Positions 4,220 to 23,446 of a stretch of 64,000 nucleotides of DNA are shown here, in pieces. The notes below the pieces were generated by a model that saw nothing but the letters and a program-made list of their open reading frames with translations, had not been told where the DNA came from and searched no databases. The stretch is from contig NZ_CP020469.1 in the NCBI RefSeq assembly GCF_003031405.1, forward strand, positions 3,658,001 to 3,722,000, read 5' to 3'. A program made the translations under genes and the position numbers. How positions within the stretch are numbered: the first letter of the stretch is position 1; the number at the start of each line of letters is the position of its first letter. The DNA is from Halomonas sp. 'Soap Lake #6' (lineage in GTDB: Bacteria; Pseudomonadota; Gammaproteobacteria; Pseudomonadales; Halomonadaceae).

Positions 4220-5725
4220 ATGCAAGGTGTCCTTTCATCCATCGAGCGTGTGGGCAATAAGCTGCCCCACCCGTTTATTCTATTTGTCATTTTGGCTGGC
4301 GTAGTTGTGGTCGTCTCAGCCCTGCTTGCCACACTTGGCGTTTCAGCGGTTAACCCGCAAACCGACGCCGTGGTACAAGTGCGCAGCCTACTCTCGGCAG
4401 ATGGTATTGAGTTTATGCTGACCAGTGTGGTCAGCAACTTTGTAAACTTCCCTCCGCTAGGCCTTATTTTGGTGGTGATGTTCGGCATTGGTTTGGCCGA
4501 TAAAGTAGGCTTGATGTCTACCTTGATGCAGGTAAGTGTGGCTAAGGCGCCACCCTCGCTGCTCACCTTTAGCGTTTTTATGGCAGGTATCTGCGGCAGT
4601 ATCGCCTCTGATGCAAATTACCTGATCCTAATCCCCCTGGCTGCTATGGTGTACTACTCGGTAGGTCGTCACCCGGTCGCTGGTGCTGCGGCCGCCTACG
4701 CTGCAGCAGGCGCGGGGTTTGATGCTAGCCTGTTTATCACCGTCGGTGATGCACTGTTTGCCGGTATTACCACCGAGGCTGCGCGCTTAGTAGACCCCGA
4801 TGCCTATGTTTCACCTGTTGATAACTACTACTTTGTGGCCTGCTCAGTATTTGTCCTCGCGATTGTGGGCACATTAGTGGTCGACAAATTTGTGGAACCG
4901 AGGCTGCAGCGTACCCTGCCACTCAGCAAAGACTTTAAAACCGAAGTCATAAAGCCAGAGCTAACCGATGCAGAAAAGCGTGGCTTGAAGCGGGTAGGCG
5001 TTGCCACGCTCATCTATCTAGCGCTGATCTTAATTGCCGTAGTGCCAGAGGCCTCTCCACTACGTAATGAGGATGGTGGCCTGATTCCCTCTCCCTTCCT
5101 AAGCTCGCTAGTACCGCTGATGTTTGGCTACTTCGTTACGATTGGCTTGGTATATGGCATCACCACTGGCAAGATCACCAGCAGCCGTGATGTGCCGCAG
5201 CGCATGGCCGAATCCGCTAGCGATTTAGCCCCCACCCTGGTGCTATTCTTTGCGATTTCACAGTTTATTGCCTATTTCCGCTGGTCGGAACTAGGCCAAT
5301 ATATTGCCATTGAAGGTTCCAATATTCTGCAAAGCACAGGGTTTACTGGGCTTCCGTTGGTAGGTGCGTTTATCGCCATGAGCGCAGTGCTGAATGTCTT
5401 TATGACCAGCGGCTCGGCCCAGTGGGCGTTAATGGCGCCAGTGTTCGTCCCGATGCTGATGATGATCGACTTCGACCCAGCCTTTGTACTGGCGATGTTC
5501 CGTATCGGGGACTCCAGTACCAACATTATTTCACCCATGAGCCCCTACTTTTCAGTAGCACTGGTATATATGCAGCGCTACAAGCCGGATATGGGGTTAG
5601 GTACACTGATAGCCACCATGCTGCCGCTGGCCGTGGGCTTCCTGCTCGCTTGGTCGGTATTCTTGATGTTCTGGCTGGCAATGGGCTGGCCGATTGGCCC
5701 CGGTGTCTACATGATGGCGAGCTGA
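4220..5725 (+). CDS. AbgT-family transporter (p-aminobenzoyl-glutamate type)
   Basis: A 501-residue polytopic membrane protein of the AbgT family. Seen: an N-terminal amphipathic start (VERVGNKLPHPFILF-like), about 11-13 hydrophobic segments, and the family's polar re-entrant stretches (GICGSIASDANYLILIP, and near the C-terminus FRIGDSSTNIISPMSPY). Known members move p-aminobenzoyl-glutamate or export sulfonamides, driven by ion gradients. Its position behind an M20 hydrolase favours import of an aroyl or acyl amino acid. AAGGA lies 9 bp before the ATG. It converges with the LysR gene ending at 5756; the 30-bp gap holds one copy of an 18-bp duplication. Confidence 0.9.
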   Translation: MQGVLSSIERVGNKLPHPFILFVILAGVVVVVSALLATLGVSAVNPQTDAVVQVRSLLSADGIEFMLTSVVSNFVNFPPLGLILVVMFGIGLADKVGLMSTLMQVSVAKAPPSLLTFSVFMAGICGSIASDANYLILIPLAAMVYYSVGRHPVAGAAAAYAAAGAGFDASLFITVGDALFAGITTEAARLVDPDAYVSPVDNYYFVACSVFVLAIVGTLVVDKFVEPRLQRTLPLSKDFKTEVIKPELTDAEKRGLKRVGVATLIYLALILIAVVPEASPLRNEDGGLIPSPFLSSLVPLMFGYFVTIGLVYGITTGKITSSRDVPQRMAESASDLAPTLVLFFAISQFIAYFRWSELGQYIAIEGSNILQSTGFTGLPLVGAFIAMSAVLNVFMTSGSAQWALMAPVFVPMLMMIDFDPAFVLAMFRIGDSSTNIISPMSPYFSVALVYMQRYKPDMGLGTLIATMLPLAVGFLLAWSVFLMFWLAMGWPIGPGVYMMAS

Positions 5726-5736
5726 TAGCTCAGCAT

Positions 5737-5772
5737 ATTACTGCACCGTCATCCATTACTGCATCGCCATCA
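5737..5772. repeat. 18-bp tandem duplication at convergent gene ends
   Basis: Two adjacent 18-bp copies beginning ATTACTGCA match at 15 of 18 positions (5737-5754 and 5755-5772). They lie 12 bp behind the AbgT stop, and the second copy forms the last codons of the convergent LysR gene. This belongs to a wider pattern of tandem repeats next to stop codons in this window. Confidence 0.6.
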
Positions 5773-6652
5773 TTAACTTCCACAGATAGTCGGCAGCAGG
5801 CGAAAGCCTTCTGCCGACTCTACGTACCAAGTTGCCCTGGCTGCTAGCGGCCATAGGGTGATCAATGGGAATTGCCCTCAGCAAACCTGCTTCTATTTCA
5901 CTGCGTGCTGCTGCAGCTGTCATAAACGATACGCCAATGCCTGCGCTGGCCATGCGCCGGGATACCGAATGTAGGTTGCAACGATAGGCAGGCGTGGCCA
6001 ACTGTCCGGCAGCACTAAATAGTGCGTTCACAAACTGCTGTGAACCTGATACGTCAGGCAAAAATATCAGCTTATGTTGCAGTAATTCTGTGACAGCCAC
6101 GCTCTCCTGGCTGGCAAGCGAATGGGATGGTGCTACCAGCGCACACAGCGGTCCTCGTTCAAAGGAGTGCACCACTAAGCGGGGATCTGATACGGGGCCG
6201 TAGGTAATCGCGATATCCACTTCGTCGCTGGCGACCATTTCATGAGGCTCGCGAGGGTAGTAAATACCCGTTTTGATCTCAATCAAGACGTCGGGATACT
6301 GCTCGGAAACACGCCGCATCACGTGGTTGATAAAGCTATCCACAAAGCCATCACCCACCGAGACCACCACCTTCCCCGCCTGCAAGTTACGCAGCCGAGA
6401 CAGCGTATCCCCCAGCTCTGAATTCAGCCGCCGCTGGGCAAGAAACCCATCCACCACCATCTGGCCTGCTTCGGTCAAAATCACATGCCGTCCCTGGCGT
6501 TCCAACAGCGCCATACCCAATTCCCGCTCCAAGCCGCGCACTTGGCGGCTCACCACGGAAGGATTGATATGTAGATGCTCCGCCGCCGCACGTATTCCCC
6601 CGCAGCTGCTTACCTCAAACAAGTAGAACGCACGTTTATCCAGTAGGGTCAT
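5756..6652 (-). CDS. LysR-family transcriptional regulator
   Basis: A 298-residue LysR protein. The helix-turn-helix occupies residues 5-63 (FYLFEVSSCGGIRAAAEHLH, then LLERQGRHVILTEAGQ), followed by a type 2 periplasmic-binding-like effector domain. The reading frame continues upstream to 6751, but that 33-residue extension is hydrophobic and basic and lies before the usual LysR start, so the ATG at 6652 is preferred. It converges on the amidohydrolase/AbgT pair and is the nearest candidate regulator of it, although the arrangement is not the classic divergent one. The effector is unknown. Confidence 0.87.
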   Translation of the reverse strand: MTLLDKRAFYLFEVSSCGGIRAAAEHLHINPSVVSRQVRGLERELGMALLERQGRHVILTEAGQMVVDGFLAQRRLNSELGDTLSRLRNLQAGKVVVSVGDGFVDSFINHVMRRVSEQYPDVLIEIKTGIYYPREPHEMVASDEVDIAITYGPVSDPRLVVHSFERGPLCALVAPSHSLASQESVAVTELLQHKLIFLPDVSGSQQFVNALFSAAGQLATPAYRCNLHSVSRRMASAGIGVSFMTAAAARSEIEAGLLRAIPIDHPMAASSQGNLVRRVGRRLSPAADYLWKLMMAMQ

Positions 6653-6807
6653 GACGATCTCGTATGAATAATCTTGTGACAACAACCTTGTATATTTGCG
6701 CTTTAAAATTGATGGCAACGATAAAACCACCCTACCCAAGGCCGCTTGCACCCAGCCTTTGTTATGCTACTTTCGAAATGCAGCTAATTTGAAGCAGGGA
6801 AGCTCGT

Positions 6808-7086
6808 ATGACCAATAAAATCAAACCTGCGAAAGTGAAAGCATTAAATGTCGTCTGTAGTTTTTCCCTTTTGACTTCAGCTGGCTACATCTTTTTCGCA
6901 GGCTTCAATTTGTTTGTATTAATGGTAGTCGCCGCCGCCCTCTCTAGCATGGCAGCTCCTGTGTTAGTAGGTGGCAATAATAGTTTTCTGGAGGTATTGC
7001 TGGGCATCTTGGAGGCGATTACTGAGGGCGTGGTGGCAATTTTCACAGGAATCTATAATGCGATATCCGCGCTGTTTAATTGGTAG
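6808..7086 (+). CDS. Small hydrophobic protein of unknown function
   Basis: A 92-residue ORF with a lysine-rich N-terminus (MTNKIKPAKVKA) and two or three hydrophobic stretches (about residues 14-50 and 58-90), so probably an inner-membrane protein. A purine-rich AGGGAAG lies 6 bp before the ATG. I do not recognise a family. A strong bidirectional terminator lies 30 bp behind its stop, which supports it being a real transcription unit rather than a chance ORF. It is convergent with the cold-shock gene. Confidence 0.6.
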   Translation: MTNKIKPAKVKALNVVCSFSLLTSAGYIFFAGFNLFVLMVVAAALSSMAAPVLVGGNNSFLEVLLGILEAITEGVVAIFTGIYNAISALFNW

Positions 7087-7116
7087 TCATGGTAAATAAT
7101 AGCAGCACTGTAACGC

Positions 7117-7142
7117 AAAAACCCCGCTCTTGGCGGGGTTTT
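7117..7142. terminator. Bidirectional Rho-independent terminator
   Basis: A GC stem (ACCCCGC / GCGGGGT) with a short loop, flanked by an A-run at 7117-7121 and a T-run at 7139-7142. It can therefore stop both the small membrane ORF on the plus strand and the cold-shock gene on the minus strand. Confidence 0.85.
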
Positions 7143-7185
7143 AAGCTTACCGATCTAGTCGGTAGCTAATATCACAATATGGAGT

Positions 7186-7392
7186 TTATTCCATAACCTT
7201 GATATTAGAAGCTTGAAGGCCTTTTTGGCCCTGGGTAACGTCAAAAGAAACCTTCTGACCGTCTTGCAGGGATTTAAAGCCATCTGCTTGAATTTCAGAG
7301 AAGTGTGCAAACAAATCGTCGCCGCTAACTTCAGGAGAAATAAAGCCGAAGCCTTTAGTGTCGTTAAACCACTTTACGGTACCAGTTGCCAT
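7186..7392 (-). CDS. Cold-shock domain protein (CspA family)
   Basis: A 68-residue single cold-shock domain, the usual length of the family. Both RNA-binding motifs are present: KGFGFISP (RNP1) near residue 13 and DLFAHFSEI (RNP2) near residue 26. GAGGA lies 8 bp upstream of the ATG. These proteins are RNA chaperones that melt mRNA secondary structure, often but not always induced by cold. About 370 bp of gene-free DNA upstream leaves room for the long structured 5' leader known from cspA. It shares a terminator with the small membrane ORF. Confidence 0.95.
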
Positions 7393-7765
7393 GATCGAAG
7401 TCCTCGATTTAGCGAAATTAAAGCCGGGGAAATACCCGAGTTACAGAGGGTAGAACAAGAAACTTTCACCAGGCTCAACGCTAAAATGCTTCGATACTGC
7501 TGACAACGTTCGACTTGCTAACCAACTGCATACAGTCTGCGCTTCTATCTTACCCACGTCAACAGCAAGTACGAAAAAGATTTCAAATCTCGAATAATAA
7601 TATTAAACAGCGAATATTTAATTAAAAAACAGCGCCAATAAATATCACTCCAACACTGCTCACTAGATGATTTACCGCCCGATAAACATGAGCAGCGGGC
7701 GGCATGCAGTATATTTTTTAAATTAAAAACACACCTTTGAAACTTATATCCGTTAATTAATCCTC
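7393..7765 (-). promoter_or_regulatory. Gene-free stretch upstream of the cold-shock gene (probable leader and promoter)
   Basis: These 373 bp hold no plausible gene. The part nearest the cold-shock gene probably forms a long 5' leader as in cspA. A TTGACG hexamer on the minus strand near 7555-7561 could be a -35 element, but I cannot pair it with a convincing -10. The distal part (7580-7765) is very AT-rich and adjoins the 3' end of the LysR gene. Confidence 0.35.
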
Positions 7766-8653
7766 CTAATCCAACCGATCACGTATCCATTCAATAAAAG
7801 CGCGTAGTTTATAAACATCCACCATATGTTCCGGGTAGGCCATGTAATAGGCATCCTGGCTTTTAAGCGAGAACTGCCAAGGAATGACCAACTTTCCCTC
7901 ATCAAGCTCTTCTTGAGCAAGAAACCTAGGCACTAACGCGACGCCGCAACCCGCTCGTGCAGACCTTAACGCCATATAAAAGGTATCAAACCTTGGTCCA
8001 TGGTAACTGTGCTCAGTGTATAGATCTTGTGCTTCAAACCAGTCATGCCACCCCTCTGGCCGAGTAGAGACTTGTAACAACACCATATCTGTTAAATCTA
8101 GCGGGTCGCGTACCGTTGTCTGCTGCAAGGCGGAAGGCGCACATACAGGAACCACTTCTTCATCCAGTAATTTCATGCACTCGGCGCGCGGCCATACCCC
8201 ATGACCAAAAAAGAAAGCAACTTCTATGCGCTCCTTTTGCATGTCAAATGGCTCGGTACGGTTAGAAATATTGAGATTAATGCTCGGATGTTTAAAGCGA
8301 AACCCATTCAACCGTGGGATAAGCCAGCGCGCCCCAAAAGTGGGCAACGTAGCAATATTAAGCACATCAGCCTCTACACCATAAGATTGCATATAGCGCG
8401 TGGACATCTCTACTTGAGCCAATATTTTACGCGCCTCACCGAGGTAGACCGCCCCCTCTGGCGTTAGGTGCAGACGCTTTCTAACCCTTCTGAATAGTGG
8501 ATGCTGCAGTGTTATTTCCAGCTGTGATACCTGCTTGCTCACAGCGCTTTGAGTCAGGCTAAGCTCATCTGCTGCCCGAGTGAAGCTAAGGTGTCTAGCC
8601 GCTGCTTCAAAACAGTGCAAGCTGGTCAAAGAAGGTAAGTTGCGACGGCGCAT
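7766..8653 (-). CDS. LysR-family regulator, GcvA-like (paralog of the gene at 22559)
   Basis: A 295-residue LysR protein with the GcvA-type N-terminus (RNLPSLTSLHCFEAAARH, then LSLTQSAVSKQVSQLE). The ATG at 8653 is preferred to a GTG two codons earlier because it aligns with the paralog at 22559, which is also 295 residues. The two share most of the DNA-binding domain and many effector-domain stretches (AFFFGHG/AFFYGHG, LSTRP/VSTRP, SYHGPRFDTF/SYHGTRFETF). It is divergent from the AmaB-type dehydrogenase, with a perfect dyad between them. It likely regulates the lysine/pipecolate genes; this is inference from position. Confidence 0.9.
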   Translation of the reverse strand: MRRRNLPSLTSLHCFEAAARHLSFTRAADELSLTQSAVSKQVSQLEITLQHPLFRRVRKRLHLTPEGAVYLGEARKILAQVEMSTRYMQSYGVEADVLNIATLPTFGARWLIPRLNGFRFKHPSINLNISNRTEPFDMQKERIEVAFFFGHGVWPRAECMKLLDEEVVPVCAPSALQQTTVRDPLDLTDMVLLQVSTRPEGWHDWFEAQDLYTEHSYHGPRFDTFYMALRSARAGCGVALVPRFLAQEELDEGKLVIPWQFSLKSQDAYYMAYPEHMVDVYKLRAFIEWIRDRLD

Positions 8654-8682
8654 AAACACCCCACTTGGTGAAATTAAGGAAT

Positions 8683-8701
8683 GATGTTTTTCACAAACAT
8701 C
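8683..8701. promoter_or_regulatory. Candidate LysR operator in the divergent promoter
   Basis: A perfect 7-bp inverted repeat with a 5-bp spacer (GATGTTT, TTCAC, AAACATC) lies between the divergent LysR and dehydrogenase genes. It contains the nonamer TTCACAAAC (8690-8698), which also occurs at 19135-19143 upstream of the aminotransferase operon. The length and position fit a LysR recognition site. Confidence 0.45.
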
Positions 8702-8777
8702 GTTTGATGAGTTGCTTATAGCTTGGCAATACTGGCCCTGTAACCAATTTACTCACAACTCAATATTTGGTGAAGCA

Positions 8778-10271
8778 ATGATTCATTCCCTGATGGAAAA
8801 AATGGGCGTCGCAAAAGAGCAGTACCAAGGCGGTAGCCTTGTTGTTACAACTCCCATTGATGGCAGCGAAATTGGGCGTCTAAAAACGGCATCCAGCAGT
8901 GAAGTGGATACAGCTATCGCGAATGCAGAAAAAGCCTTTCTAGCCTGGAAAAGTGTGCCAGCTCCTCGTCGTGGTGAGTTGGTTCGCCTGTTTGGCGATC
9001 AACTGCGCCAGCACAAAGAATCACTCGGCGAGTTGGTCACTTGGGAGTGCGGCAAGATTCTTCAGGAGGGACTTGGCGAAGTTCAGGAAATGATCGATAT
9101 CTGTGACCTTGCCGTCGGTCAATCGCGCCAACTATTTGGGCTAACAATTGCTTCCGAGCGCCCCGGCCACCATATGCGTGAAAGCTGGCATCCATTAGGC
9201 CCGATTGGCTTGATTACAGCTTTCAACTTTCCGGTCGCTCCCTGGGCATGGAATTCAGCATTAGCCCTGGTGTGCGGCAACAGCTTGCTGTGGAAGCCTT
9301 CGGAGAAAACGCCGTTAACGGCGCTGGCATGCCAAGCCCTACTAGAGCGTGCCATTAAACAATTTGGTGATGAGGCACCAGAGCACTTGAGCCAAGTGAT
9401 TATTGGTGAGCGCGATGCTGGAGAGCAGTTGGTCAACGATGCTCGGGTTGCTCTCATTAGTGCAACCGGCAGTACTCGCATGGGGCGCGAAGTAGGGCCT
9501 AAAGTCGCTGCACGCTTTGGCCGTAGCATTCTTGAGCTGGGCGGCAACAATGCGATGATTTTGGCACCGAGTGCCGATCTTGATATGGCAACTCGCGCCA
9601 TCCTGTTCTCAGCGGTCGGTACAGCAGGGCAACGCTGTACAACGCTGCGCCGTTTGGTCGTCCATGAGTCCATTAAAGATGAAATTTTGGTTCGTCTTAA
9701 AAAGTCCTACAGCGCAGTGACTATTGGCAACCCACTTGAAGGCAACCTGGTGGGTCCCTTGATTGATCACCAAGCCTTTGATGCGATGCAGAGTGTGTTA
9801 GCCAAGGCGCGTGAGCAAGGTGCAACGGTGTTTGGTGGAAACCGTGTGGAGATCGCCAACAGCGATGAAGGCTATTACGTCGAGCCAGCCATTGTGGAAG
9901 TGACCGAGCAGAACGCACTGGTCAAGCACGAAACCTTTGCGCCGATTCTTTACGTGCTTACCTACCAAGAGCTTGATGAGGCCATTGCAATCAATAACAA
10001 CGTTCCCCAGGGCCTTTCATCCTGCATATTTACCACCGATGTGCGTGAAGCAGAAACCTTCGTCTCTGCAGTAGGCAGCGACTGCGGCATAGCCAACGTC
10101 AACATCGGCCCCAGCGGCGCTGAAATCGGCGGAGCGTTCGGAGGTGAGAAAGAAACTGGCGGTGGCCGTGAGTCCGGCTCCGACGTTTGGAAGAGCTATA
10201 TGCGCCGCCAAACCAATACCGTTAACTACTCCCGTGAGCTCCCGTTAGCCCAAGGCATTAAGTTCGACTAA
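8778..10271 (+). CDS. amaB: Aldehyde dehydrogenase, AmaB/ALDH7 type (2-aminoadipate semialdehyde dehydrogenase)
   Basis: A 497-residue NAD-dependent aldehyde dehydrogenase. Seen: the ALDH-specific AFNFPVAPWAWN stretch, the glutamate motif ELGGNN, the catalytic cysteine in GTAGQRCTTLRR near residue 287, and a C-terminal GGAFGGEKETGGGRESGSD segment characteristic of ALDH7/antiquitin and bacterial AmaB. Known members oxidise the open form of 1-piperideine-6-carboxylate to 2-aminoadipate in lysine catabolism. The frame extends upstream to 8712, but the ATG at 8778 begins the conserved region. The flanking NhaC carrier, AmaA-like oxidase, HglS and D-2-hydroxyglutarate dehydrogenase strongly support this role. 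A hairpin at 10285-10312 follows. Confidence 0.88.
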   Translation: MIHSLMEKMGVAKEQYQGGSLVVTTPIDGSEIGRLKTASSSEVDTAIANAEKAFLAWKSVPAPRRGELVRLFGDQLRQHKESLGELVTWECGKILQEGLGEVQEMIDICDLAVGQSRQLFGLTIASERPGHHMRESWHPLGPIGLITAFNFPVAPWAWNSALALVCGNSLLWKPSEKTPLTALACQALLERAIKQFGDEAPEHLSQVIIGERDAGEQLVNDARVALISATGSTRMGREVGPKVAARFGRSILELGGNNAMILAPSADLDMATRAILFSAVGTAGQRCTTLRRLVVHESIKDEILVRLKKSYSAVTIGNPLEGNLVGPLIDHQAFDAMQSVLAKAREQGATVFGGNRVEIANSDEGYYVEPAIVEVTEQNALVKHETFAPILYVLTYQELDEAIAINNNVPQGLSSCIFTTDVREAETFVSAVGSDCGIANVNIGPSGAEIGGAFGGEKETGGGRESGSDVWKSYMRRQTNTVNYSRELPLAQGIKFD

Positions 10272-13294: not shown

Positions 13295-14668
13295 CTAAAC
13301 TAATGCTGCGCCTTTTAAACTTGCCAGCACTTGGACTTTAGAGGCGTTTTCACGCTCGGCATACAGGGATAATTCATCGGTTACCTTGGCGCCCAATGCT
13401 TCTTCAAAGGCATCACGATTGGCATTAGCAGCATAGGCTTCACTTTGTGTGCCGCCTAAGTTTGACTGAAAAATGCCTGCTGCGCTCACCGGCAAAAAGT
13501 CTTCATAGGTAATCGGCTGAGCTTCTACCAAGCCTTGTTTCACCAACGCATTTATATCTTCCTCAGCACTGCCTTTAAAGGCCCGACCAGCATCGGTCAG
13601 GTGATAGTGGAAGTATGCCAGCTGTTCTTGACGAATCGCTTCGTCATTGTCTGGAAATGCAGCAAAGATCTTATCCATTACCGCTTGGTGGGCGTCGTTA
13701 TCAAGCCCTGCCGTTTGTTTACGACCTTCATTAAGCAGTTGGTCATACAGCGCACGGCCTTTTGGAGTCAGCGCCATACCGCGCTGCTCAATCTCACCAA
13801 AGCGTGCTGTGTGGGTGCCTTGTGCATCACCGGCAAAGCGAATCGACTCTTCTAACGCTTTGAAGCTGGTTTGACGCAATAAAATGGGGCATGCGCGGCG
13901 CGGCGGCCCTTCAATTACCGCTTTGGGGTTCATCCCCATTTCAGGCATACGGCGCTGAGCTTCATCGATATCCAGGGTGCGCGGCGTCAGATGGTTAATA
14001 TGCGGGCCCTTGAAGCACACAACATCGGCAATCAAACGGTGCTCATCATGAAGTGCATGATAGGTATCCAAGTCAACAGTGGCATCCTGGTGCCAGCGGA
14101 AGGTTTCCAGCGCCTCTTTGACAAACTGGTCCGCTTCTTCACTGGTTAACCCACCCTGGGTTTCATGGCGCTCAATCAACTCACGCACCTGAGCCGTGAA
14201 AATATCCCGCTTCGCCAGAATCTCTTCGGCACGCTGGCGCAGCGCTTCACTGTCAATGAGCTCTAAACGTAGTAACGAAGTAAACACTCGGAAGGGGTTC
14301 CGGGCCAGCGCCTCATCTTCGATAGGCCGGAAAGCAGTTGAATGCACAGGCACCCCCGCCTCAGAAAGGTCGTAATAACCGACCGGATACATCCCCATCA
14401 CGGCAAACAAGCGGCGCAACATGGAAAGCTCGGCGGCGGTTCCCACCCGAATAGCGCCATGGCGCTCCACGCTAAGGCGTGCCAGTTCACCCTGTGCTTC
14501 CAGACGGCGGTGCAGCTCTGGTTGTTGGCTAAGCGTTTCTTGATTAACGCGCTCCACAAGTTCAAGCAGTGTGCCGTACTGGGGTACTTCTGCCTGGTAC
14601 ATGGCCGACATTGCTTTAGAAAAACGGTCGCGAACATCATCAGTTGGAAGAAGGGCTATTTGGGTCAT
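13295..14668 (-). CDS. hglS: 2-oxoadipate dioxygenase/decarboxylase (HglS, formerly DUF1338/YdcJ)
   Basis: A 457-residue DUF1338 protein. The iron ligands reported for Pseudomonas putida HglS, as I recall His70, His226 and Glu294 with substrate-binding Arg74, all occur here at those same numbers (VERHGAIR, GPHINHLTP, FGEIEQRG). The enzyme converts 2-oxoadipate with O2 to D-2-hydroxyglutarate and CO2. It is the last gene of a minus-strand operon, 11 bp behind the D-2-hydroxyglutarate dehydrogenase gene that consumes its product. The matching residue numbers make this one of the safer functional calls in the window. Confidence 0.93.
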   Translation of the reverse strand: MTQIALLPTDDVRDRFSKAMSAMYQAEVPQYGTLLELVERVNQETLSQQPELHRRLEAQGELARLSVERHGAIRVGTAAELSMLRRLFAVMGMYPVGYYDLSEAGVPVHSTAFRPIEDEALARNPFRVFTSLLRLELIDSEALRQRAEEILAKRDIFTAQVRELIERHETQGGLTSEEADQFVKEALETFRWHQDATVDLDTYHALHDEHRLIADVVCFKGPHINHLTPRTLDIDEAQRRMPEMGMNPKAVIEGPPRRACPILLRQTSFKALEESIRFAGDAQGTHTARFGEIEQRGMALTPKGRALYDQLLNEGRKQTAGLDNDAHQAVMDKIFAAFPDNDEAIRQEQLAYFHYHLTDAGRAFKGSAEEDINALVKQGLVEAQPITYEDFLPVSAAGIFQSNLGGTQSEAYAANANRDAFEEALGAKVTDELSLYAERENASKVQVLASLKGAALV

Positions 14669-14679
14669 GGTATGGCTCT

Positions 14680-17600
14680 CTATTGCATATTGTTGGGATA
14701 AAGATGAGATACCGACTTCAATTGCGCCAATAGCGCCTGAAGTGGGTGATGCAAAGTTTGCGCTGAGTAGCGCTTTACCTGGCTGCGGCAGGAGTAACCG
14801 GTTGCCAGCAACTTGCCCGCGTTTTCGTCCGCTTCCACCTGGGGTTGCCAGGATTGGGCGTAAATGGTTTTGGAGGTTTCCACATTGCGGGTTTCATGCC
14901 CGTAGGTGCCAGACATACCGCAGCAACCGCTATTTGCCAGTTCAAGCTGTAAGCCAAAAGCGGCAAACACCTGCTGCCAGGCTTTTGGACTACCTGGGGC
15001 GTTGGTCTTTTCGGTACAGTGCGACAGCAGCTTGAAACCTGGGTCGGTGAGCGCGAGCTGGCGGGGGGCAAGTGTGTTGATGCGGGTTCCCAGCCACTCC
15101 TGGAGCATCAGTACCTCGGGTACCTGCTCGGCACCTAGGGCTTTGACGTACTCCTGGCGGTAGGTGAGCGTCATGGCCGGGTCGATACCGACCATGGGCA
15201 CCTGAAATTCGGCCAGTGCCCGTAGGCGTTTGGCCTGCTTTTCCGCGGTGCGCTCAAAGGCACCTAAAAAGCCCTGCACCTGCAGCGGTTTGCCGTTGGC
15301 AGAAAACGGCATCACAAACACCCGCAGGTTAAGCCGCGACAGCAGTTCCACTACATCCATCACCAGCTTGGCTTCAAAGTAGCTGGTGAAGGCGTCCTGA
15401 ACAATAATCACGCTGTTGGCCTGCTGTTGCTCGGTGAGCAGGGCCAGTGACGTGGGGGTGGCTTCTGCCACGCCCCAGGCACGCAGCTGCTTTTTCACGC
15501 TAGCACGAGACAGGTGCGGGGAGTCGCTAATGCCTAACCCTTTGCGCATCAGGCCATCGATCCAGCGCTGGCCGAGCAGGGCGTTATACAGTGGGGCGAC
15601 CTTGGCAAGTGTTGGCAGCATCAGCTCTGTACCGCCCATAATGTAGTCCCGCACGGGGCGCAGGTAGCGGCCGTGGTAGACCTCTAAAAACTGCGAGCGG
15701 AATTGGGGTACATTGACTTTGATCGGGCACTGGCCCGCACAGGATTTACACGCCAAACAGCCTGCCATGGCGTCGTATACCTGATGGGAGTAGTCGTGGT
15801 GCTGCTGCTTGCTGAGCGTGTTCATGGCGCGCTTAGGGAAGCTTTTGATAAACCCCCAGCTGCGCTCGGCCTTTTTCTTGCGCGACTCTTCCACGACATC
15901 GATACCCGCCTGGGACTGTAGCCGCAACCACTCGCGGATTAAGCTGGCACGGCCCTTGGGTGAATGCACCCGGTCGCGGGTGGCCTTCCAGGAAGGGCAC
16001 ATGGGGTCATCAATATCGTAGTTGTAGCAGGCGCCGTTGCCGTTACAGTAGACCGCCGCGTCATAGGCTTGCCAGGCACGCTCATCGATAGTGCGGTCCA
16101 ACTGACCGCGCATCGGCACGCCATCAATGGTTAACAGCTCCGGGTCGCTGTCTTTGGCAATCAGTGCATTGCCTGCGGGCCTACCCGCGGCTTCGGGCGG
16201 GCTGGACAGAGGCGAGGCAATCTTGCCTGGGTTCAACTGATTATGCGGATCAAAGGCGGCTTTTACCCGCTGCAGGCTGGGATACAGCTCGCCAAAGAAC
16301 TTAGGGCCGTACTCAGAACGCACCCCTTTGCCGTGTTCACCCCACAGCAAGCCACCGTACTTCTGGGTAAGGGCCGCCACTTCATCGGAGATCTCGCGGA
16401 TCAGTGCTTCCTGCTCGGGATCTTTCATATCCAGTGCCGGGCGCACGTGGAGCACCCCCGCATCCACATGACCGAACATGCCGTACGCAAGCTTGCGGGC
16501 ATCCAACGCAGCACGAAATTCCGCAATGAACTCGGCCAGGCACTCCGGCGGGACGGCGGTATCTTCCACAAAGGCAATCGGGCGCTTTTCACCCTGCACA
16601 TTCCCCAGTAAGCCCACTGAGCGTTTACGCATGGCGTAGACTTTCTGGATCTGCGGGCGGCCTTCGGCCAGGGTGTAGCCTAACCGCTCTACCGTGGGGT
16701 CTTGGCTGAGATGGTCCGTAAAGGTTTGTACCCGCTCGGCCAGGCGCTCAGGATCATTGTCATTAAACTCAATCAGGTTAATGCCCCGAATCGGCGTGCT
16801 ACCGGTGGCGGGGAAGAACGCCGCTACGCTGTCCCAGACAAAGTCCTCCATGGCCAACTGCAACACGGTGTCGTCGATGGTTTCAATGGAGGTGGGACTA
16901 GCGCTGGCGGTCATGAGCGCTTTGGCATCGCGTAGCGCATCCATAAAACTGGCGTAGCGCACATTAACCAGCGTGGCGTGCTTAGGAATCGGTAGCACGT
17001 TGAGGACGGCTTCATTCAAAAAGCCTAGTGAACCTTCCGAACCGCACAGCAAGCTATTCAGGTTCAACTGACCGTCTGCTTCCCGCAAATGCGCCAAATC
17101 GTAGCCGGTTAAACATCGGTTGAGCGGTGGGAACTTCGCCTCAATCAACGCGCGCTGCTGATCGATAATGGTGGCAGCGGTGGTATGCACGCGCCCAAGA
17201 ATGCCTGCCTGGGCAACGGCCTGCTGCTCCTCCTCAGCACTTAGTGGGCGGCTATGCAGGTGTTGGCCACCCAGCAAAACCGTATCCAGTTCCAGCACGT
17301 GGTCACGGGTTTTGCCGTACTCGCAACTGCCCTGGCCACTGGCGTCGGTGGAGATCATGCCACCAATGGTGGCACGGTTAGAGGTGGAGAGTTCAGGCGC
17401 AAAAAACAGCCCATAGGGCTTGAGCGCCGCATTGAGCTGATCTTTCACCACCCCTGCCTGGACGCGCACCCGTCGTGCCTCCACATCGATCTCAAGGATC
17501 TGGTTCATATGGCGGGACACATCCACCACGATCCCATCGGTTAGCGACTGGCCATTGGTGCCGGTACCGCCACCGCGGGGGGTGAGCACGATATCGCGGT

Positions 17601-17823
17601 GGGGCAGTTCCGCCGCCAGTTTGGCCAGGCGCTCCAGGTCGTCGGCGTGCTTGGGAAACACGGCAGCCTGGGGCAGGCGCTGGTAAATCGAGTTATCCGT
17701 CGCCAGCACGGTACGGTTGGCGTAGTCGGGGGCAATCTCGCCCTCGAAGCCGCGGGCGCGGAGAGCTTCAAGAAACGCAGCATATGACCTTTCTTCAGCA
17801 ACCCCGCCAACCTTTGCAATCAT
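14680..17823 (-). CDS. ydiJ: FAD/4Fe-4S D-2-hydroxyglutarate dehydrogenase (YdiJ type)
   Basis: A 1047-residue fused flavoprotein of the YdiJ family (E. coli YdiJ is about 1018 residues). Order: FAD-binding type 4 domain in roughly residues 40-190 (TPRGGGTGTNGQSL), FAD-linked oxidase C-terminal domain to about 540, cysteine-rich Fe-S regions near 591 (CNGNGACYN) and 690 (CLACKSCAGQCP), and a CCG domain near 966 (CCGMSGTYG). Family members oxidise D-2-hydroxyglutarate to 2-oxoglutarate and pass electrons to the respiratory chain. Its ATG overlaps the stop of the aminotransferase gene (ATGA), so the two are translationally coupled, and hglS follows 11 bp later. Confidence 0.9.
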   Translation of the reverse strand: MIAKVGGVAEERSYAAFLEALRARGFEGEIAPDYANRTVLATDNSIYQRLPQAAVFPKHADDLERLAKLAAELPHRDIVLTPRGGGTGTNGQSLTDGIVVDVSRHMNQILEIDVEARRVRVQAGVVKDQLNAALKPYGLFFAPELSTSNRATIGGMISTDASGQGSCEYGKTRDHVLELDTVLLGGQHLHSRPLSAEEEQQAVAQAGILGRVHTTAATIIDQQRALIEAKFPPLNRCLTGYDLAHLREADGQLNLNSLLCGSEGSLGFLNEAVLNVLPIPKHATLVNVRYASFMDALRDAKALMTASASPTSIETIDDTVLQLAMEDFVWDSVAAFFPATGSTPIRGINLIEFNDNDPERLAERVQTFTDHLSQDPTVERLGYTLAEGRPQIQKVYAMRKRSVGLLGNVQGEKRPIAFVEDTAVPPECLAEFIAEFRAALDARKLAYGMFGHVDAGVLHVRPALDMKDPEQEALIREISDEVAALTQKYGGLLWGEHGKGVRSEYGPKFFGELYPSLQRVKAAFDPHNQLNPGKIASPLSSPPEAAGRPAGNALIAKDSDPELLTIDGVPMRGQLDRTIDERAWQAYDAAVYCNGNGACYNYDIDDPMCPSWKATRDRVHSPKGRASLIREWLRLQSQAGIDVVEESRKKKAERSWGFIKSFPKRAMNTLSKQQHHDYSHQVYDAMAGCLACKSCAGQCPIKVNVPQFRSQFLEVYHGRYLRPVRDYIMGGTELMLPTLAKVAPLYNALLGQRWIDGLMRKGLGISDSPHLSRASVKKQLRAWGVAEATPTSLALLTEQQQANSVIIVQDAFTSYFEAKLVMDVVELLSRLNLRVFVMPFSANGKPLQVQGFLGAFERTAEKQAKRLRALAEFQVPMVGIDPAMTLTYRQEYVKALGAEQVPEVLMLQEWLGTRINTLAPRQLALTDPGFKLLSHCTEKTNAPGSPKAWQQVFAAFGLQLELANSGCCGMSGTYGHETRNVETSKTIYAQSWQPQVEADENAGKLLATGYSCRSQVKRYSAQTLHHPLQALLAQLKSVSHLYPNNMQ

Positions 17824-19073
17824 GCCTGCAGCGTCTCCAGCGCTTGCTCTAGTAGACTAAGCCCCTCAGCCATCACTTCTGGCTCAGTGGTTAAAGGCGG
17901 TAATAAGCGTAAGACATTACGTTTCCGGCCGCTGGGCATTAATAAAACACCTGCATCGCGACCTGCAGCTAACAGCTTGGCCAAGTGCTCTGCACCGGTC
18001 GCATTTTCGGTATCTTCAAACACGATACCTCGCATAGCACCCACACCTGTTAAAGCACCCAACATAGGGAAACGCTCGCTTGCTTTCCAGTTCTGGTAAG
18101 CACTAACAATCGCCGTTTCTTGCCCATTTGCCCATGCGTTTAGCGCATCGTCTTGCATGATGTCCATCACCGCCAATGCTGCTGCACAGGCCACCGCATT
18201 ACCTGAGTAAGTGCCTCCCAGCGCGCCTTTCGGTAACGCATCCATTAACTCTTTACGCCCTACCAAGGCGGCAAGGGGTAGGCCTGCGGCAATACTTTTC
18301 CCCAACAGCATAAGATCGGGCTCAATGCCTAGATGGCTGAAACCAAAACGCTGGCCAGTTCGCCCAAAACCCGACTGAATTTCATCACAAATCAACAGCA
18401 TGCCGTGCTGGTCACAGAGTGCACGTAACGCTTTAGCAAACTGGGGGCATAACAAGCGAAAGCCCCCCTCTCCCTGAATAGGCTCAACGATGACACAAGC
18501 CACTTCACTGGGTGCAATCTCTACCTCGAAAATACGCTCGAACGCAGCAAGCGATTGCTCTGCAGTAATACCACTATCCTGGCTAGGAAACGGGACGTGA
18601 TAAACCGGCCCCGGTAGCGCCCCTAACCCTGCTTTGTAGGGCTTAACTTTGCCGTTCAAATTGAGGGCTGCCAGCGTTCGGCCATGGAAAGCATCATCAA
18701 AGGCGATAACTGCTTGCCGTCCGGTAACACCTCGGGCGACTTTCAGAGCATTTTCTGTCGCTTCCGCACCGCTGTTCGTCAGCATGCAGGCAAGCGGGTA
18801 AGACACAGGGACAAACTTATTTAGCCTCTCTACAACAGATAGGTAGCCACGGTGTGGCAGTGCATTGAAAGCCGAATGCATTAGGGTGTCGACCTGAGCC
18901 TTCACAGCCTCAACAACCACTGGGTGGCTGTGGCCTAAATTAAGCACACCAATACCACCAATAAAGTCGATATAGCGCTTGCCCGTTTCATCCCATACCT
19001 CCGCATTACGCCCTTTGGTAATACAGACCGGATGTAGGATCCCTAATGCACTGCTGACGTGGGGAAGGTCCAT
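17820..19073 (-). CDS. Class III PLP aminotransferase (GabT-like; probable 2-aminoadipate transaminase)
   Basis: A 417-residue class III aminotransferase. Seen: TNSGAEATENALK near residue 99, FHGRTLAAL near 129, the cofactor aspartate in CDEIQSGFGRTG near 230, and the PLP lysine K259 in LLGKSIAAG. By sequence alone it would be called 4-aminobutyrate aminotransferase. Being first gene of an operon with the 2-oxoadipate dioxygenase and D-2-hydroxyglutarate dehydrogenase, its likely reaction is 2-aminoadipate to 2-oxoadipate. 5-aminovalerate or GABA remain possible. AGGAGAG lies 8 bp before the ATG. The TTCACAAAC motif lies about 60 bp upstream. Confidence 0.88.
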   Translation of the reverse strand: MDLPHVSSALGILHPVCITKGRNAEVWDETGKRYIDFIGGIGVLNLGHSHPVVVEAVKAQVDTLMHSAFNALPHRGYLSVVERLNKFVPVSYPLACMLTNSGAEATENALKVARGVTGRQAVIAFDDAFHGRTLAALNLNGKVKPYKAGLGALPGPVYHVPFPSQDSGITAEQSLAAFERIFEVEIAPSEVACVIVEPIQGEGGFRLLCPQFAKALRALCDQHGMLLICDEIQSGFGRTGQRFGFSHLGIEPDLMLLGKSIAAGLPLAALVGRKELMDALPKGALGGTYSGNAVACAAALAVMDIMQDDALNAWANGQETAIVSAYQNWKASERFPMLGALTGVGAMRGIVFEDTENATGAEHLAKLLAAGRDAGVLLMPSGRKRNVLRLLPPLTTEPEVMAEGLSLLEQALETLQA

Positions 19074-19473: not shown

Positions 19474-20469
19474 ATGACACACCTCCCCTCTAAAGCTCTT
19501 TGTGGCTTTGGCGCTGCGCTTTTGCTTGCAGGCTGTGGCAGTGAAAGCAAACCCAACATCGCCATTGGCCCGCCTGCCAGTACAACGCAGAGCGTCTCCC
19601 AATTGCTTTTTGATGCCTATGGTATCGGTAGCGATAAATACAATACGTACCAGGAAGGGTTTGGCGCAGCGCTGGATGGGGTTCAGGATGGCAACATCGA
19701 TATCTCTGTCGGCATCCTTGGTCTACCTTCAGGTAGCATCGAAAACTTGCAAGCCTCTAGTGGCGACGTACGTCTGATTAGCTTAAGCGATGATGCTATT
19801 GACTATATTGAAAGCAATAGCGCCTACCAGCGTTTTACCATTCCAGCTAATAGCTATGCCTTCCAGGATGAAGACGTTAACACGATTACGGCGTATGCAG
19901 TTTTAGTTGGCAACACCAATACCATTGACGAGCAATTGGGGTATGAGCTGGCACGCTTAATGCACGAGCACGCCGAAGAGAACACCCACTCCCAGTCAGC
20001 ATTCATAACGCTTGATAACGCGCTTAATGGCTCGGAAGGCTTGCCTATTCACCCTGGTGCAAAGCGTTATTATGAAGAGCAAGGGCTTAGCGTTGAAAAC
20101 TCCGTCGCAGAGCTTGGCGATATCACCTCTAAAAGAGAGTTTGTGTTAGGTACTGGCAGCCAAGGGGGCACTTATTACCCTCTCGGTGGTGAAATGGCCA
20201 CTATTTGGAACCGTTATTTGGATGACCAGAACTTCACCAATATTGAAACAGGCGCCTCTATCGAGAACCTGGTAAGCATTCGTGATAACAACCTGGATCT
20301 GGGTATGACTGTTCATGCCCCCGCGCAGGATGCTGTAGCAGGGCGCGGCGAGTTTGACGGTATGGAGATTGGTAACGTCGCGTTTATTGGTCACATCTAC
20401 CCTGAAGTGATTCAAATCGTTACTCGCGAACGCTCCAACATTAATAGCTTAAGTGATCTAGCTAAATAA
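19474..20469 (+). CDS. TAXI-family TRAP solute-binding lipoprotein, apparently circularly permuted
   Basis: A 331-residue lipoprotein with lipobox LLAGC (Cys21). Its segments are in an order I do not know from other TAXI proteins. Residues 28-205 match the part that normally comes last: NIAIGPPAST, then LGLPSGSIENLQ, the IPANSYAFQDEDV stretch and LPIHPGAKRYYEEQGL. Residues 223-331 match what normally comes first: VLGTGSQGGTYYPLGG, TGASIENL, and HIYPEVIQIVTRE to SLSDLAK, where the protein stops. The cut falls at the junction usually reading DLKGK-xxIGxPGSG. The signal peptide, ribosome-binding site (AGGAG) and downstream permease show a working gene, not debris. Its ligand is unknown. Confidence 0.9.
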   Translation: MTHLPSKALCGFGAALLLAGCGSESKPNIAIGPPASTTQSVSQLLFDAYGIGSDKYNTYQEGFGAALDGVQDGNIDISVGILGLPSGSIENLQASSGDVRLISLSDDAIDYIESNSAYQRFTIPANSYAFQDEDVNTITAYAVLVGNTNTIDEQLGYELARLMHEHAEENTHSQSAFITLDNALNGSEGLPIHPGAKRYYEEQGLSVENSVAELGDITSKREFVLGTGSQGGTYYPLGGEMATIWNRYLDDQNFTNIETGASIENLVSIRDNNLDLGMTVHAPAQDAVAGRGEFDGMEIGNVAFIGHIYPEVIQIVTRERSNINSLSDLAK

Positions 20470-20505: not shown

Positions 20506-20531
20506 TATATACATGAGGTTTAATCGTGGAT

Positions 20532-20540
20532 AAAAAAAAA
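20532..20540 (+). repeat. A9 homopolymer that breaks the permease reading frame at its start
   Basis: A GTG at 20526 with a good ribosome-binding site (GAGGT, 8 bp upstream) leads into GAT and nine A residues, then hits a TAG within 13 codons. A tenth A would join GTG-GAT-Lys-Lys-Lys to the open permease frame (TPDEAALLEKYDRE). The permease would then be 651 residues, against 652 for the second TRAP permease in this window. Confidence 0.75.
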
Positions 20541-20635
20541 CACCTGACGAAGCGGCTCTTTTAGAAAAGTATGACCGAGAATCTCAAGTACGCTCAACGC
20601 CACAGTTAGGTAAATGGGCTTGGCTTATCACCCTA

Positions 20636-22480
20636 ATGGGCGTGTCGCTGACTTGCTTTCACCTTTATACCGCTTATTTCGGCACTCTCCCCTCTCAGCA
20701 ACAGGGCGCTGTCCATTTAGGAATGGCACTGGGGATGATATTCATTCTATTCCCTGCCTCAACTAAAGCTGGCTATCGGCAAGGCGTTCCTTGGTACGAC
20801 ATTGTATTGGCCTTTACGGGAACATTTGCCGCCTACTATAAGATTCTATTTTATGAAGAAGTCCTGCGCGCCCGCATAACGGGTTACTCAAGCTTTGATC
20901 TTGCAATCGCCGCGATTGGGGTATTGTGTGTACTCGAAGCGACCCGGCGTACAGTTGGGATGCCAATTGTTATTATGGCAGCACTGGCCATTTCATATGC
21001 GCTGTTTGGTAACCTGATACCGAGTCCTTTGCTTTCTCACGCGGGCTTTTCTTTTGATCAGGTCTCTCCCTACCTGTGGTTTAGAGAAAGTGGGGTATTT
21101 GGTACACCACTACAAATATCCGCTCGCTTTATTTTCTTATTCCTGTTTTTTGGTGTTGTGTTAATGCACACCGGTGTAGGGCGTTTCTTTAATGACTTGG
21201 CTTTTGCCGTAACGGGTCGTTTTACCGGAGGGGCTGGAAAAGCAGCCGTTATGGCGAGCTCTCTACAAGGAATGATTTCAGGTAGTTCGATAGGCAACAC
21301 GGTAGCTTCGGGCTCCTTCACCATTCCGATGATGAAAAACGCACGCTTTAAGCCAGAAGTCGCAGGAGCAGTTGAAGCCTCTGCGTCAACTGGCGGCCAG
21401 ATCATGCCCCCTTTAATGGGTGCAGCGGCCTTTATCATGGTCGAATATGTGGGCGTTTCTTACCGGGAAATTATGTTCTCAGCACTGATCCCCGCCATAC
21501 TCTACTTCGCCAGTATCTTTATTGGGGTCCACTTCGAAGCTAAACGGCACCGCATTCTGGGGCTACCCAAGGATCAGTTACCCAGTAAACGTAAGCTCAT
21601 GCTTTCAAAAGGCTATATGCTACTGCCTTTGCTGGTCATCGTGACCACCATTAGCATTGGATTTACCGCCCAGCGAGCTGCATTACTCGGTATTGCCTGC
21701 GCATTTGCTGTCAGTTTAATACGTAAAGAAACACGCCCATCACTACTTGGCATACTGAATATTTTTGAGAAAGGCGCCCGAGTAGCGCTACCCGTTATTG
21801 CGGCTGTGGCCTGTGCAGGCATCATTGCTGGTGTTGTAGGTATGACCGGGATGGGGTCAAAGTTTGCAGCCGGCATCATTAGCCTGGCTGATGGCGTACT
21901 AATACTCGCCCTGCTATTTACGATGGTGGCATGTATCGTACTTGGCATGGGACTACCGACAACAGCGAACTATGTTGTTACGGCCACCATTGCAGCACCC
22001 GCGCTAATCAACGAATTTGGTCTTCCGCCCATGGCGGTACACCTCTTTGTGTTCTATTTCGGCATCATTGCCGACATAACTCCCCCGGTGTGTCTTGCCG
22101 CTTTTGCTGGAGCTGGCATTGCACGTGCCAACCCAATGAAAACCGGCTTTACCGCAGTCAAGCTGGCGATTGGCGCATTTATTATTCCCTACGCCTTCAT
22201 CTATAATCCCATGCTGGTACTCGTTGATCCTACGTTACCAGGCCTTATCAGCGCGTTATTCTTTTCGCTGGTCGGTATTATGGGGGTGAGTAGCGCACTA
22301 TTAGGCTACTTTGTGCGCGATTCCCTCTTCTGGGAGCGGCTGGTACTGTTCGTAGCCGGGCTTGCCATGGTGGTTCCCGAGTTGGTGACGAGCAGCTTAG
22401 GCTTGCTAGCGATGGCTATTATCGGATGGCTACAGTCTCGCCGCCCTAATGCATTTCAGGAGGCGCAATCACTCGCTTAA
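20636..22480 (+). CDS. TRAP transporter fused permease (4TM/12TM, DctQM type), 5' end frame-disrupted
   Basis: The intact ORF encodes 614 residues of a fused small-plus-large TRAP permease, the kind that pairs with TAXI binding proteins. DctM-type motifs are present: MASSLQGMISGSSIGNTVASG near residue 205, ASTGGQIMPPLMGAAAF near 250 and GMGLPTTANYVVTA near 440. The ATG at 20636 has no ribosome-binding site and lies inside the first membrane helix. The same frame is open back to 20534 and codes for the expected cytoplasmic N-terminus, but has no start codon there. The natural start is probably the GTG at 20526, one base out of frame across an A9 tract. It partners with the TAXI lipoprotein immediately upstream. 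Confidence 0.85.
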   Translation: MGVSLTCFHLYTAYFGTLPSQQQGAVHLGMALGMIFILFPASTKAGYRQGVPWYDIVLAFTGTFAAYYKILFYEEVLRARITGYSSFDLAIAAIGVLCVLEATRRTVGMPIVIMAALAISYALFGNLIPSPLLSHAGFSFDQVSPYLWFRESGVFGTPLQISARFIFLFLFFGVVLMHTGVGRFFNDLAFAVTGRFTGGAGKAAVMASSLQGMISGSSIGNTVASGSFTIPMMKNARFKPEVAGAVEASASTGGQIMPPLMGAAAFIMVEYVGVSYREIMFSALIPAILYFASIFIGVHFEAKRHRILGLPKDQLPSKRKLMLSKGYMLLPLLVIVTTISIGFTAQRAALLGIACAFAVSLIRKETRPSLLGILNIFEKGARVALPVIAAVACAGIIAGVVGMTGMGSKFAAGIISLADGVLILALLFTMVACIVLGMGLPTTANYVVTATIAAPALINEFGLPPMAVHLFVFYFGIIADITPPVCLAAFAGAGIARANPMKTGFTAVKLAIGAFIIPYAFIYNPMLVLVDPTLPGLISALFFSLVGIMGVSSALLGYFVRDSLFWERLVLFVAGLAMVVPELVTSSLGLLAMAIIGWLQSRRPNAFQEAQSLA

Positions 22481-22558: not shown

Positions 22559-23446
22559 TTGGCATCTCGTAACCTTCCCTCAACGGCGGCAATGCAGTGC
22601 TTTGAAGCAGCAGCGAGGCATATGAGTTTCACTCGGGCAGCCGATGAATTAAGCCTGACACAAAGTGCGGTGAGTAAGCAGGTCGCCCATCTTGAAACAC
22701 TGCTGCAGCACAAGCTTTTTCGTCGCGTACGGCGAAGCCTGATACTTACCCCTGAAGGCGCCATCTTCCTTAGTGATGTACGCAAAGTACTCACCCAAAT
22801 TGAGATGTCAGCCCACACGATTATGACCTTTAGTGGCAATAGCGAGGTGCTCAAGGTCGCCACCTTGCCAAGCTTCGGCAGCCGCTGGCTGGCCGACAAA
22901 CTCCCCTCTTTTTTATCCGCTAACCCCGGCATTAGCTTAGAGTTTCATGACCGGGTAAAAGATTTCGATCTTGAACAGCAAAATATCGATATTGCGTTTT
23001 TTTATGGCCACGGCAGTTGGCCGAGCCTTGCATGCCATAAGCTCTTTGATGAAGAGATGGTGGCGGTTGTCTCCCCTACTTTGCTAGCTCAGCACCCCGT
23101 CCACACGGTGGATGATTTAGCACAGCTACCCTTGCTTCACCTTTCAACCCGCCCTGATGCATGGCACCACTGGTTTGCTGGCCAAAGAATCACCACTGAC
23201 CGTAGCTATCATGGTACTCGCTTTGAGACCTTTACGATGCTGGTGCGAACAGCAATGGCGGGCGGTGGTGTAGCGTTAGTGCCCCACTTTATAGTGGACG
23301 AAGAGCTCGCGGCAGAACGGCTAACACTTGCCTGGCCACATAGGCTTTTAAGCGAAAGTGCTTATTACCTGGTGTACCCCGAGCACTTGGGTGAGCTAGC
23401 CAAGGTTAGGCGCTTTGTAGAGCATATTACCCAGTTCAGCGCTTAA
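22559..23446 (+). CDS. LysR-family regulator, GcvA-like (paralog of the gene at 7766)
   Basis: A 295-residue LysR protein with a TTG start preceded at 8 bp by CAGGAG. The N-terminal helix-turn-helix (CFEAAARHMSFTRAADE, LSLTQSAVSKQVAHLE) and effector-domain stretches (DIAFFYGHGSWP, HLSTRPDAWHHWF, RSYHGTRFETF) closely follow those of the regulator at 7766, of identical length. The two therefore bracket the lysine/TAXI-TRAP block. It probably responds to the same or a related compound and may act on the TAXI-TRAP or aminotransferase operons. This is inference from position and similarity. Confidence 0.9.
   Translation: MASRNLPSTAAMQCFEAAARHMSFTRAADELSLTQSAVSKQVAHLETLLQHKLFRRVRRSLILTPEGAIFLSDVRKVLTQIEMSAHTIMTFSGNSEVLKVATLPSFGSRWLADKLPSFLSANPGISLEFHDRVKDFDLEQQNIDIAFFYGHGSWPSLACHKLFDEEMVAVVSPTLLAQHPVHTVDDLAQLPLLHLSTRPDAWHHWFAGQRITTDRSYHGTRFETFTMLVRTAMAGGGVALVPHFIVDEELAAERLTLAWPHRLLSESAYYLVYPEHLGELAKVRRFVEHITQFSA

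Follow-up and report, generated by a model that had tools for sequence, protein, structure and literature searches.

The window analyzed here, a 64,000-nucleotide stretch of the genome of Halomonas sp. 'Soap Lake #6' (contig NZ_CP020469.1), carries on its forward strand a gene for a solute-binding protein (SBP) of the TAXI family of TRAP transporters (19474..20469, + strand). The open reading frame (ORF) begins with ATG behind a likely ribosome-binding site and encodes 331 residues. A lipobox, LAGC, is read at residues 18-21 (19525..19536, +), with Cys21 as the predicted lipid-anchored residue, and a fused TRAP permease is encoded next to it. Taken as a whole, the observations are best explained by a genuine circular permutation, of natural origin, in an SBP of the TAXI type, a reading that we hold with high confidence.

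Segment order and cut site

The whole-protein score places the SBP within the TAXI family, at 206.5 bits against Pfam NMT1_3 (PF16868; cut-off 27) and 216.7 bits against NCBIfam TRAP_TAXI TIGR02122 (cut-off 84.35). Both matches are split into two stretches, and no collinear match across the ORF was found. The best stretch aligns residues 28-204 or 29-204 with model positions 113-289 of 289 (NMT1_3) or 144-320 of 320 (TIGR02122); the profile starts fit residues of about 223-330, so that the order is swapped. Solved TAXI proteins behave in the same way, with the start of 8s4j and 9ibo matching residues 223/224-330 and their end matching residues 29-205. Profiles, solved structures, and half-by-half ORF mapping thus define a new N-terminal part (residues 28-205; 19555..20088, +), which is the C-terminal segment of ordinary TAXI proteins, and a following segment (residues 223-331; 20140..20466, +) with which ordinary TAXI proteins start; the permuted chain ends where DLKGK begins. 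Between them, alignments and blocks of predicted local distance difference test (pLDDT) values delimit a linker from the old C-terminus to the old N-terminus (residues 206-222; 20089..20139, +).

Each half is therefore homologous to a part of one and the same ordinary protein, the order being swapped and the old termini joined. Given this two-stretch match, the protein is classed, on its sequence, as a permuted variant descended from the TAXI family and not as an ordinary member. The preliminary description had proposed this swap of halves and had read the second TAXI gene of the window (52302-53441) as being in ordinary order. Separate alignment of the halves bears out the former. The latter also holds, as the second protein is collinear in both profiles (residues 60-325 on positions 28-289 of NMT1_3, and 8-325 on 8-320 of TIGR02122). 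The other TAXI matches listed for this one-contig genome, seven in number, are likewise collinear.

The joining of the old termini by about 17 residues was also anticipated. The linker has exactly 17 residues here, and among 67 distinct permuted proteins the distance between the aligned halves is 17 (43 proteins), 19 (23), or 18 (1) residues. V207, V211, A212, and K220 are invariant in a 22-sequence alignment. The break had been placed in a loop between the two lobes; it does fall in a loop, DL-(K/E/A)GK, although not midway between the lobes but just before the first strand after the chain passes from lobe 1 into lobe 2. Most permuted proteins end in DL plus one or two residues, and their NIAIGPP-like stretch begins a few residues past the signal. 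About three residues (xGK) of ordinary proteins were lost at the cut, and the linker was gained.

Structure prediction is consistent with an ordinary two-lobe binding protein, and the secondary-structure elements of the predicted models agree one for one in rotated order. Mean pLDDT values of 97, 92, and 81 were obtained for residues 201-210, 211-220, and 221-230. The permuted model's 50 VIA rows include a single solved TAXI entry, 9ibp, which suggests an effect of chain-order alignment and not a different fold. The entry 9oz4, which matches the ordinary-order protein L133 (described below) by sequence, is absent from the rows of a second comparison with solved TAXI proteins. A search of a viral structure library returned nothing informative.

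Distribution and phylogeny of the permuted proteins

A scan of 82 genomes of the genus found full-length matches at 1e-40 or better in 19, the source genome included, and the other 18 are all in swapped order. A search of genome_contigs, in which order was called by mapping each query half onto every ORF, returned 75 loci, 62 swapped and 13 ordinary. Each swapped gene lies in one open frame (that of L088 is cut by a contig end), and loci L027-L040 mostly repeat the genomes of L009-L026. The swapped loci belong to Halomonadaceae, one Pseudomonas, Alcaligenaceae, one unplaced proteobacterial bin, and Bacillota, the last including Oceanobacillus, Virgibacillus, Sporosarcina, Psychrobacillus, Bhargavaea, and Lentibacillus. 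An assembly or sequencing rearrangement in this genome, a single 4.8 Mb contig in whose assembled sequence signs of such an error were looked for and none found, can be dismissed for practical purposes, since the same order recurs in 18 other same-genus genomes and in the 62 loci, which come from many projects.

The permuted form looks rare in its own phylum, because a sample of 398 genomes searched at 1e-30, with at most five candidates scored per genome, gave only the source genome and one genome of the same genus. A TIGR02122 scan of 143 Gammaproteobacteria genomes gave matches at 1e-15 or better in 33; among the rows listed from it, a swapped pair occurs only in the window gene, a negative result that weaker or more distant cases of a second independent permutation would escape. 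A plasmid search yielded only two partial matches of 34%, both from Proteus mirabilis.

The closest ordinary-order relative found is L133 (genome G745). Its genome is the only one with such a protein in a sample of 398 Bacillota, the phylum of an Oceanobacillus carrier. L133 has a signal peptide and a lipobox, followed by ITMGTGSVGGTYYPLG ... SDLEGK-RVAIGPAGSGT ... HPGAERYYQEQGILE, and solved TAXI proteins match it in one collinear stretch. The permuted proteins are cut exactly at its SDLEGK-RVAIGP site. L133 is 58% identical to the window protein over query residues 28-206 and 57% identical over 221-329. In an identity list printed as every third row (25 rows, 23 of them permuted), it shares 55-63% identity with the 23 permuted proteins, similarly in both halves, whereas the next ordinary-order proteins stand at 43%.

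For phylogenetic analysis, the halves were aligned separately and then put in ordinary order. One tree has 107 rows and omits the same-genus loci L010-L026, one of two L150 rows, and the weak, distant ordinary rows L158-L162, L165, and L166; a more careful tree of 57 rows was thinned further by hand. The permuted proteins, from many independent assemblies, form one clade (SH-aLRT 99 in the 107-row tree; 100/99 in the 57-row tree), as the search for homologues of the same order suggested in the preliminary description was meant to establish. L133 branches beside it as its sister (99; 100/96), and the next group outward consists of ordinary-order proteins from Brevibacterium and others of its class (99; 91/80). 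All 20 ordinary rows of the 57-row tree fall outside the permuted clade, which is thus nested within ordinary TAXI proteins, as common descent implies. Because a sister of the L133 type exists in ordinary order at about 55-63% identity, the ordinary order is, judged by these sequences, ancestral and the permuted order derived. A single permutation event would have occurred most likely in Bacillota, since L133 and most permuted branches come from that phylum. In both trees, the sequences from Alcaligenaceae fall together with a single one from Bacillaceae, L080 (100/98; 99 in the 107-row tree), and for this reason their permuted genes were probably acquired from Bacillota. The Halomonadaceae/Pseudomonas group is supported at 100/100; its place and the order of the other inner branches are not resolved by the trees.

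That the protein belongs instead to a separate, distant binding-protein family, natively built in an order that only looks like that of a rotated TAXI protein, is very improbable. The obvious candidate is the glycine betaine-binding OpuAC family (2b4l, 5nxx, 3chg), which serves ATP-binding cassette (ABC) and not TRAP transporters. OpuAC may itself be a lobe-swapped binding protein. In structural alignment, its members are 11-13% identical to the permuted SBP, against about 54-64% for both halves with an ordinary-order TAXI protein; this identity to L133, together with the nesting of the permuted proteins inside ordinary TAXI, led us to reject the idea. The family is also absent from the profile matches of the window SBP at an E-value of 0.001. 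The main text of PMC2861598 contains no word beginning with permut, swap, or dislocation.

Decay of a rearranged copy without function has just as little to recommend it. The gene is, by its substitution pattern, under purifying selection: the ratio of nonsynonymous to synonymous rates (dN/dS) is 0.027-0.069 in the three of eight pairs with high synonymous divergence (dS 1.25-2.83), dS being saturated in the other five. A lipobox or signal peptide is conserved, the form persists across two phyla, and a homologue of the window permease adjoins 60 of the 62 loci, the exceptions being L058 and L088 (the latter at a contig end). L058, with no permease match within 6 kb downstream, is the one observation that favors decay. 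These features, with the lipobox and likely ribosome-binding site, agree with the earlier view that the gene appears functional. L058 itself (4352-8570 of Virgibacillus sp. MSJ-26) is a paralogue of the permuted SBP followed by an ORF of 996 residues, presumably a PAS-type sensor; another permuted copy in the same strain does have a permease (L172).

Some observations weigh against the permutation as set out here. Residues 230-232 of the permuted model lie below pLDDT 50, the five models made for it score between 72.4 and 85.8, and the fold comparison is one of predicted models, made with aligners that follow chain order. L133 comes from a single genome, no second close ordinary-order sister being found among 63 genomes of its order. 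No permutation intermediate was found in this lineage, and the ordinary-order Brevibacterium loci L089 and L090 have no permease match in the stretch fetched.

Proposed origin and consequences of the rotation

In the proposed mechanism, the break in the chain of one ancestor would have fallen in the DL(K)GK loop, immediately ahead of the first strand of lobe 2, and the linker of 17-19 residues would have come to connect the old C-terminus with the old N-terminus. The most likely route would be an in-frame, head-to-tail gene duplication followed by loss of the front half of copy 1 and the back half of copy 2. The linker start, TVDNPVAEL, resembles the tails at the C-terminus of certain ordinary TAXI proteins (TIPDELRP, TVPEELKPG), as a head-to-tail fusion would leave. 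Another gammaproteobacterium has ORFs of 653 and 637 residues, each with a tandem pair of TAXI domains in frame, head to tail (L175, G1251:C213; L176, G1251:C124); a duplication route to the permutation would have to pass through an intermediate of this kind. Both points are weak and prove nothing, but they fit duplication and trimming better than gene splitting with re-fusion or direct transposition of one half, routes in whose favor the missing intermediate speaks and that we consider rather unlikely. Since the event, selection has retained the rotated protein, which is found in two phyla along with a fused TRAP permease of its own.

The permease seems to have tolerated the rotation of its SBP, because the same permease lineage adjoins L133, where the permease is 57.7% identical to that of the window, as well as the ordinary-order loci L173 and L174 from the class of Brevibacterium. 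In genome G745, the ordinary-order sister SBP and its permease lie at 6622-9695 of locus L168, on a contig of 2.36 Mb.

The rotation would also relocate the lipid anchor, which ordinary proteins carry at the lobe-1 end, to the lobe-2/hinge end. A lipobox-like motif is present in 61 of the 67 distinct permuted proteins and in none of the other 6; Alcaligenaceae-type sequences have an AxA-type signal end in its place. In 56 of these 61, 5-8 residues separate the lipid-bearing cysteine from the first residue that aligns, against a median of 19 in 57 ordinary TAXI proteins. A shorter tether was considered as the point of the rotation and rejected, since the spacer has 8 or fewer residues in 6 of the 57 ordinary proteins and about 7 in L133. 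The peculiarity therefore lies in the attachment point and not in the length of the leash.

With ordinary TAXI-TRAP SBPs (TIGR02122/PF16868; solved as 1us4, 8u79, 8s4j, 9ibo, 9ibp, 4ddd, and 9oz4), the permuted proteins share both halves, scores above cut-off, predicted secondary-structure elements, and an adjoining fused permease. They differ in a rotated chain, with termini and anchor at the lobe-2/hinge end, and in a conserved linker where ordinary proteins have free ends. L133 differs from them by its ordinary order. Natural circular permutations that keep the fold despite swapped order include swaposins, concanavalin A, and some DNA methyltransferases. The present case adds a single event that can be rooted and a sister, about 60% identical, in ordinary order; natural permutations that combine one rooted origin with a close relative in the original order and an intact partner protein seem to be rare. 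The pair is an unusually clean evolutionary comparison and amounts to a natural experiment in protein evolution. Because the two types share this identity and a permease lineage, the effect of rotation on folding, hinge motion, ligand affinity, docking, and lipid-anchor position can be addressed directly. If OpuAC had the same lobe order, two unrelated transport families would have reached this topology independently, and anchor position would matter for how a tethered SBP meets its permease. A practical warning also follows, as a profile score above cut-off hides the rearrangement and only the coordinates of the matched stretches reveal the order.

Neighboring genes and the permease start

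Upstream of the SBP gene, three genes lie on the reverse strand: a divergent 2-aminoadipate transaminase (17820..19073, -; NF049976, 748.4 bits, cut-off 650), the D-2-hydroxyglutarate dehydrogenase YdiJ (14680..17823, -; NF049975, 1538 bits, cut-off 1350), and a homologue of the 2-oxoadipate dioxygenase/decarboxylase HglS (13310..14653, -; 751 bits in its own genome), which is 72.5% identical to the HglS of L043, a protein that passes NF049974. Together, these enzymes turn 2-aminoadipate into 2-oxoglutarate. A LysR-family regulator is encoded downstream of the permease (22559..23446, +), with an orthologue downstream in 23 of the 25 Halomonadaceae/Pseudomonas loci.

By family knowledge, the cleft would bind a dicarboxylate or an amino acid and hand it to the adjoining ion-driven permease. 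At least one of the three enzyme genes occurs at over 55% identity in the fetched stretch of 22 of the 25 Halomonadaceae/Pseudomonas loci; depending on the locus, the genes lie divergently upstream of the TRAP operon or downstream of it. Such varying positions suggest more than inherited gene order, and 2-aminoadipate or a relative is a reasonable guess for the Halomonadaceae ligand, one that we rate somewhat below even. A marginally better prospect, close to even, is that the permuted protein binds glutamate or another dicarboxylate and that the aminoadipate genes are chance neighbors. Solved TAXI entries are titled as glutamate-bound or glutamate-specific, and none of the other 37 permuted loci has any of the three genes above the same threshold in its fetched stretch, weaker matches such as a transaminase at 33% in L068 and YdiJ at 27% in L055 being left out of the tally. 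Further points against an aminoadipate link are that HglS occurs in 78 of the 82 genus genomes whether or not the permuted protein is present and in none of the 15 permuted-carrying Bacillota genomes tested, so that no genome-level association was found in either set. For the same reason, the aminoadipate proposal would hold at most for the Halomonadaceae loci.

The fused TRAP permease (TIGR02123, DctM; 20534..22480, +) scores 689.7 bits against TIGR02123 (cut-off 320.65) and includes 34 conserved codons upstream of its first in-frame ATG (20636). Its start displays a conserved frame break (20526..20540, +), seen in the sequence and in locus comparison. A GTG at 20526, preceded by TGAGG, opens the frame GTG GAT AAA AAA AAA, which ends in a run of nine A (A9, 20532-20540) and then runs out of frame with the permease. 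The conserved permease N-terminus (TPDEAALLEKYDRESQVRS...LGKWAW) sits one base off the GTG frame, in the frame entered after A9. In the permease frame, a stop overlaps the run and no start codon precedes the ATG at 20636. Over the 31 codons after the run, the permease frame has a ratio of nonsynonymous to synonymous polymorphism (pN/pS) of 0.08, whereas the two remaining frames have 1.17 and 5.0 (120 pairs from 16 sequences, many of the pairs being close relatives). Reading of the loci shows A9 with the overlapping stop in 21 of the 25 Halomonadaceae/Pseudomonas loci, for example L027, L028, L031, L041, L044, and L050. Programmed transcriptional slippage or ribosomal frameshifting appears the likeliest explanation of this pattern, with phase variation at the site as its rival.

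A fuller scenario can be offered only tentatively. The SBP would have rotated once, placing its anchor on lobe 2 by the hinge, and the permease would have accepted it; the transporter would then have moved between Bacillota and Pseudomonadota, its permease start in Halomonadaceae being controlled by slippage.

The run is the only one of eight or more A or T in the window. Among the 21 loci with A9, L048 has its nearest ATG at an offset different from that of the GTG starts. The remaining Halomonadaceae/Pseudomonas loci vary: L020/L036 is in frame, with A10 at the site; L045 and L046 lack the A-run and start in frame; and in L043 the A9 lies in an open frame that has no start codon. In Bacillota and Alcaligenaceae, the loci with a permease never reach nine A at this place (A7 in L054, A8 in L080) and carry in-frame starts upstream.
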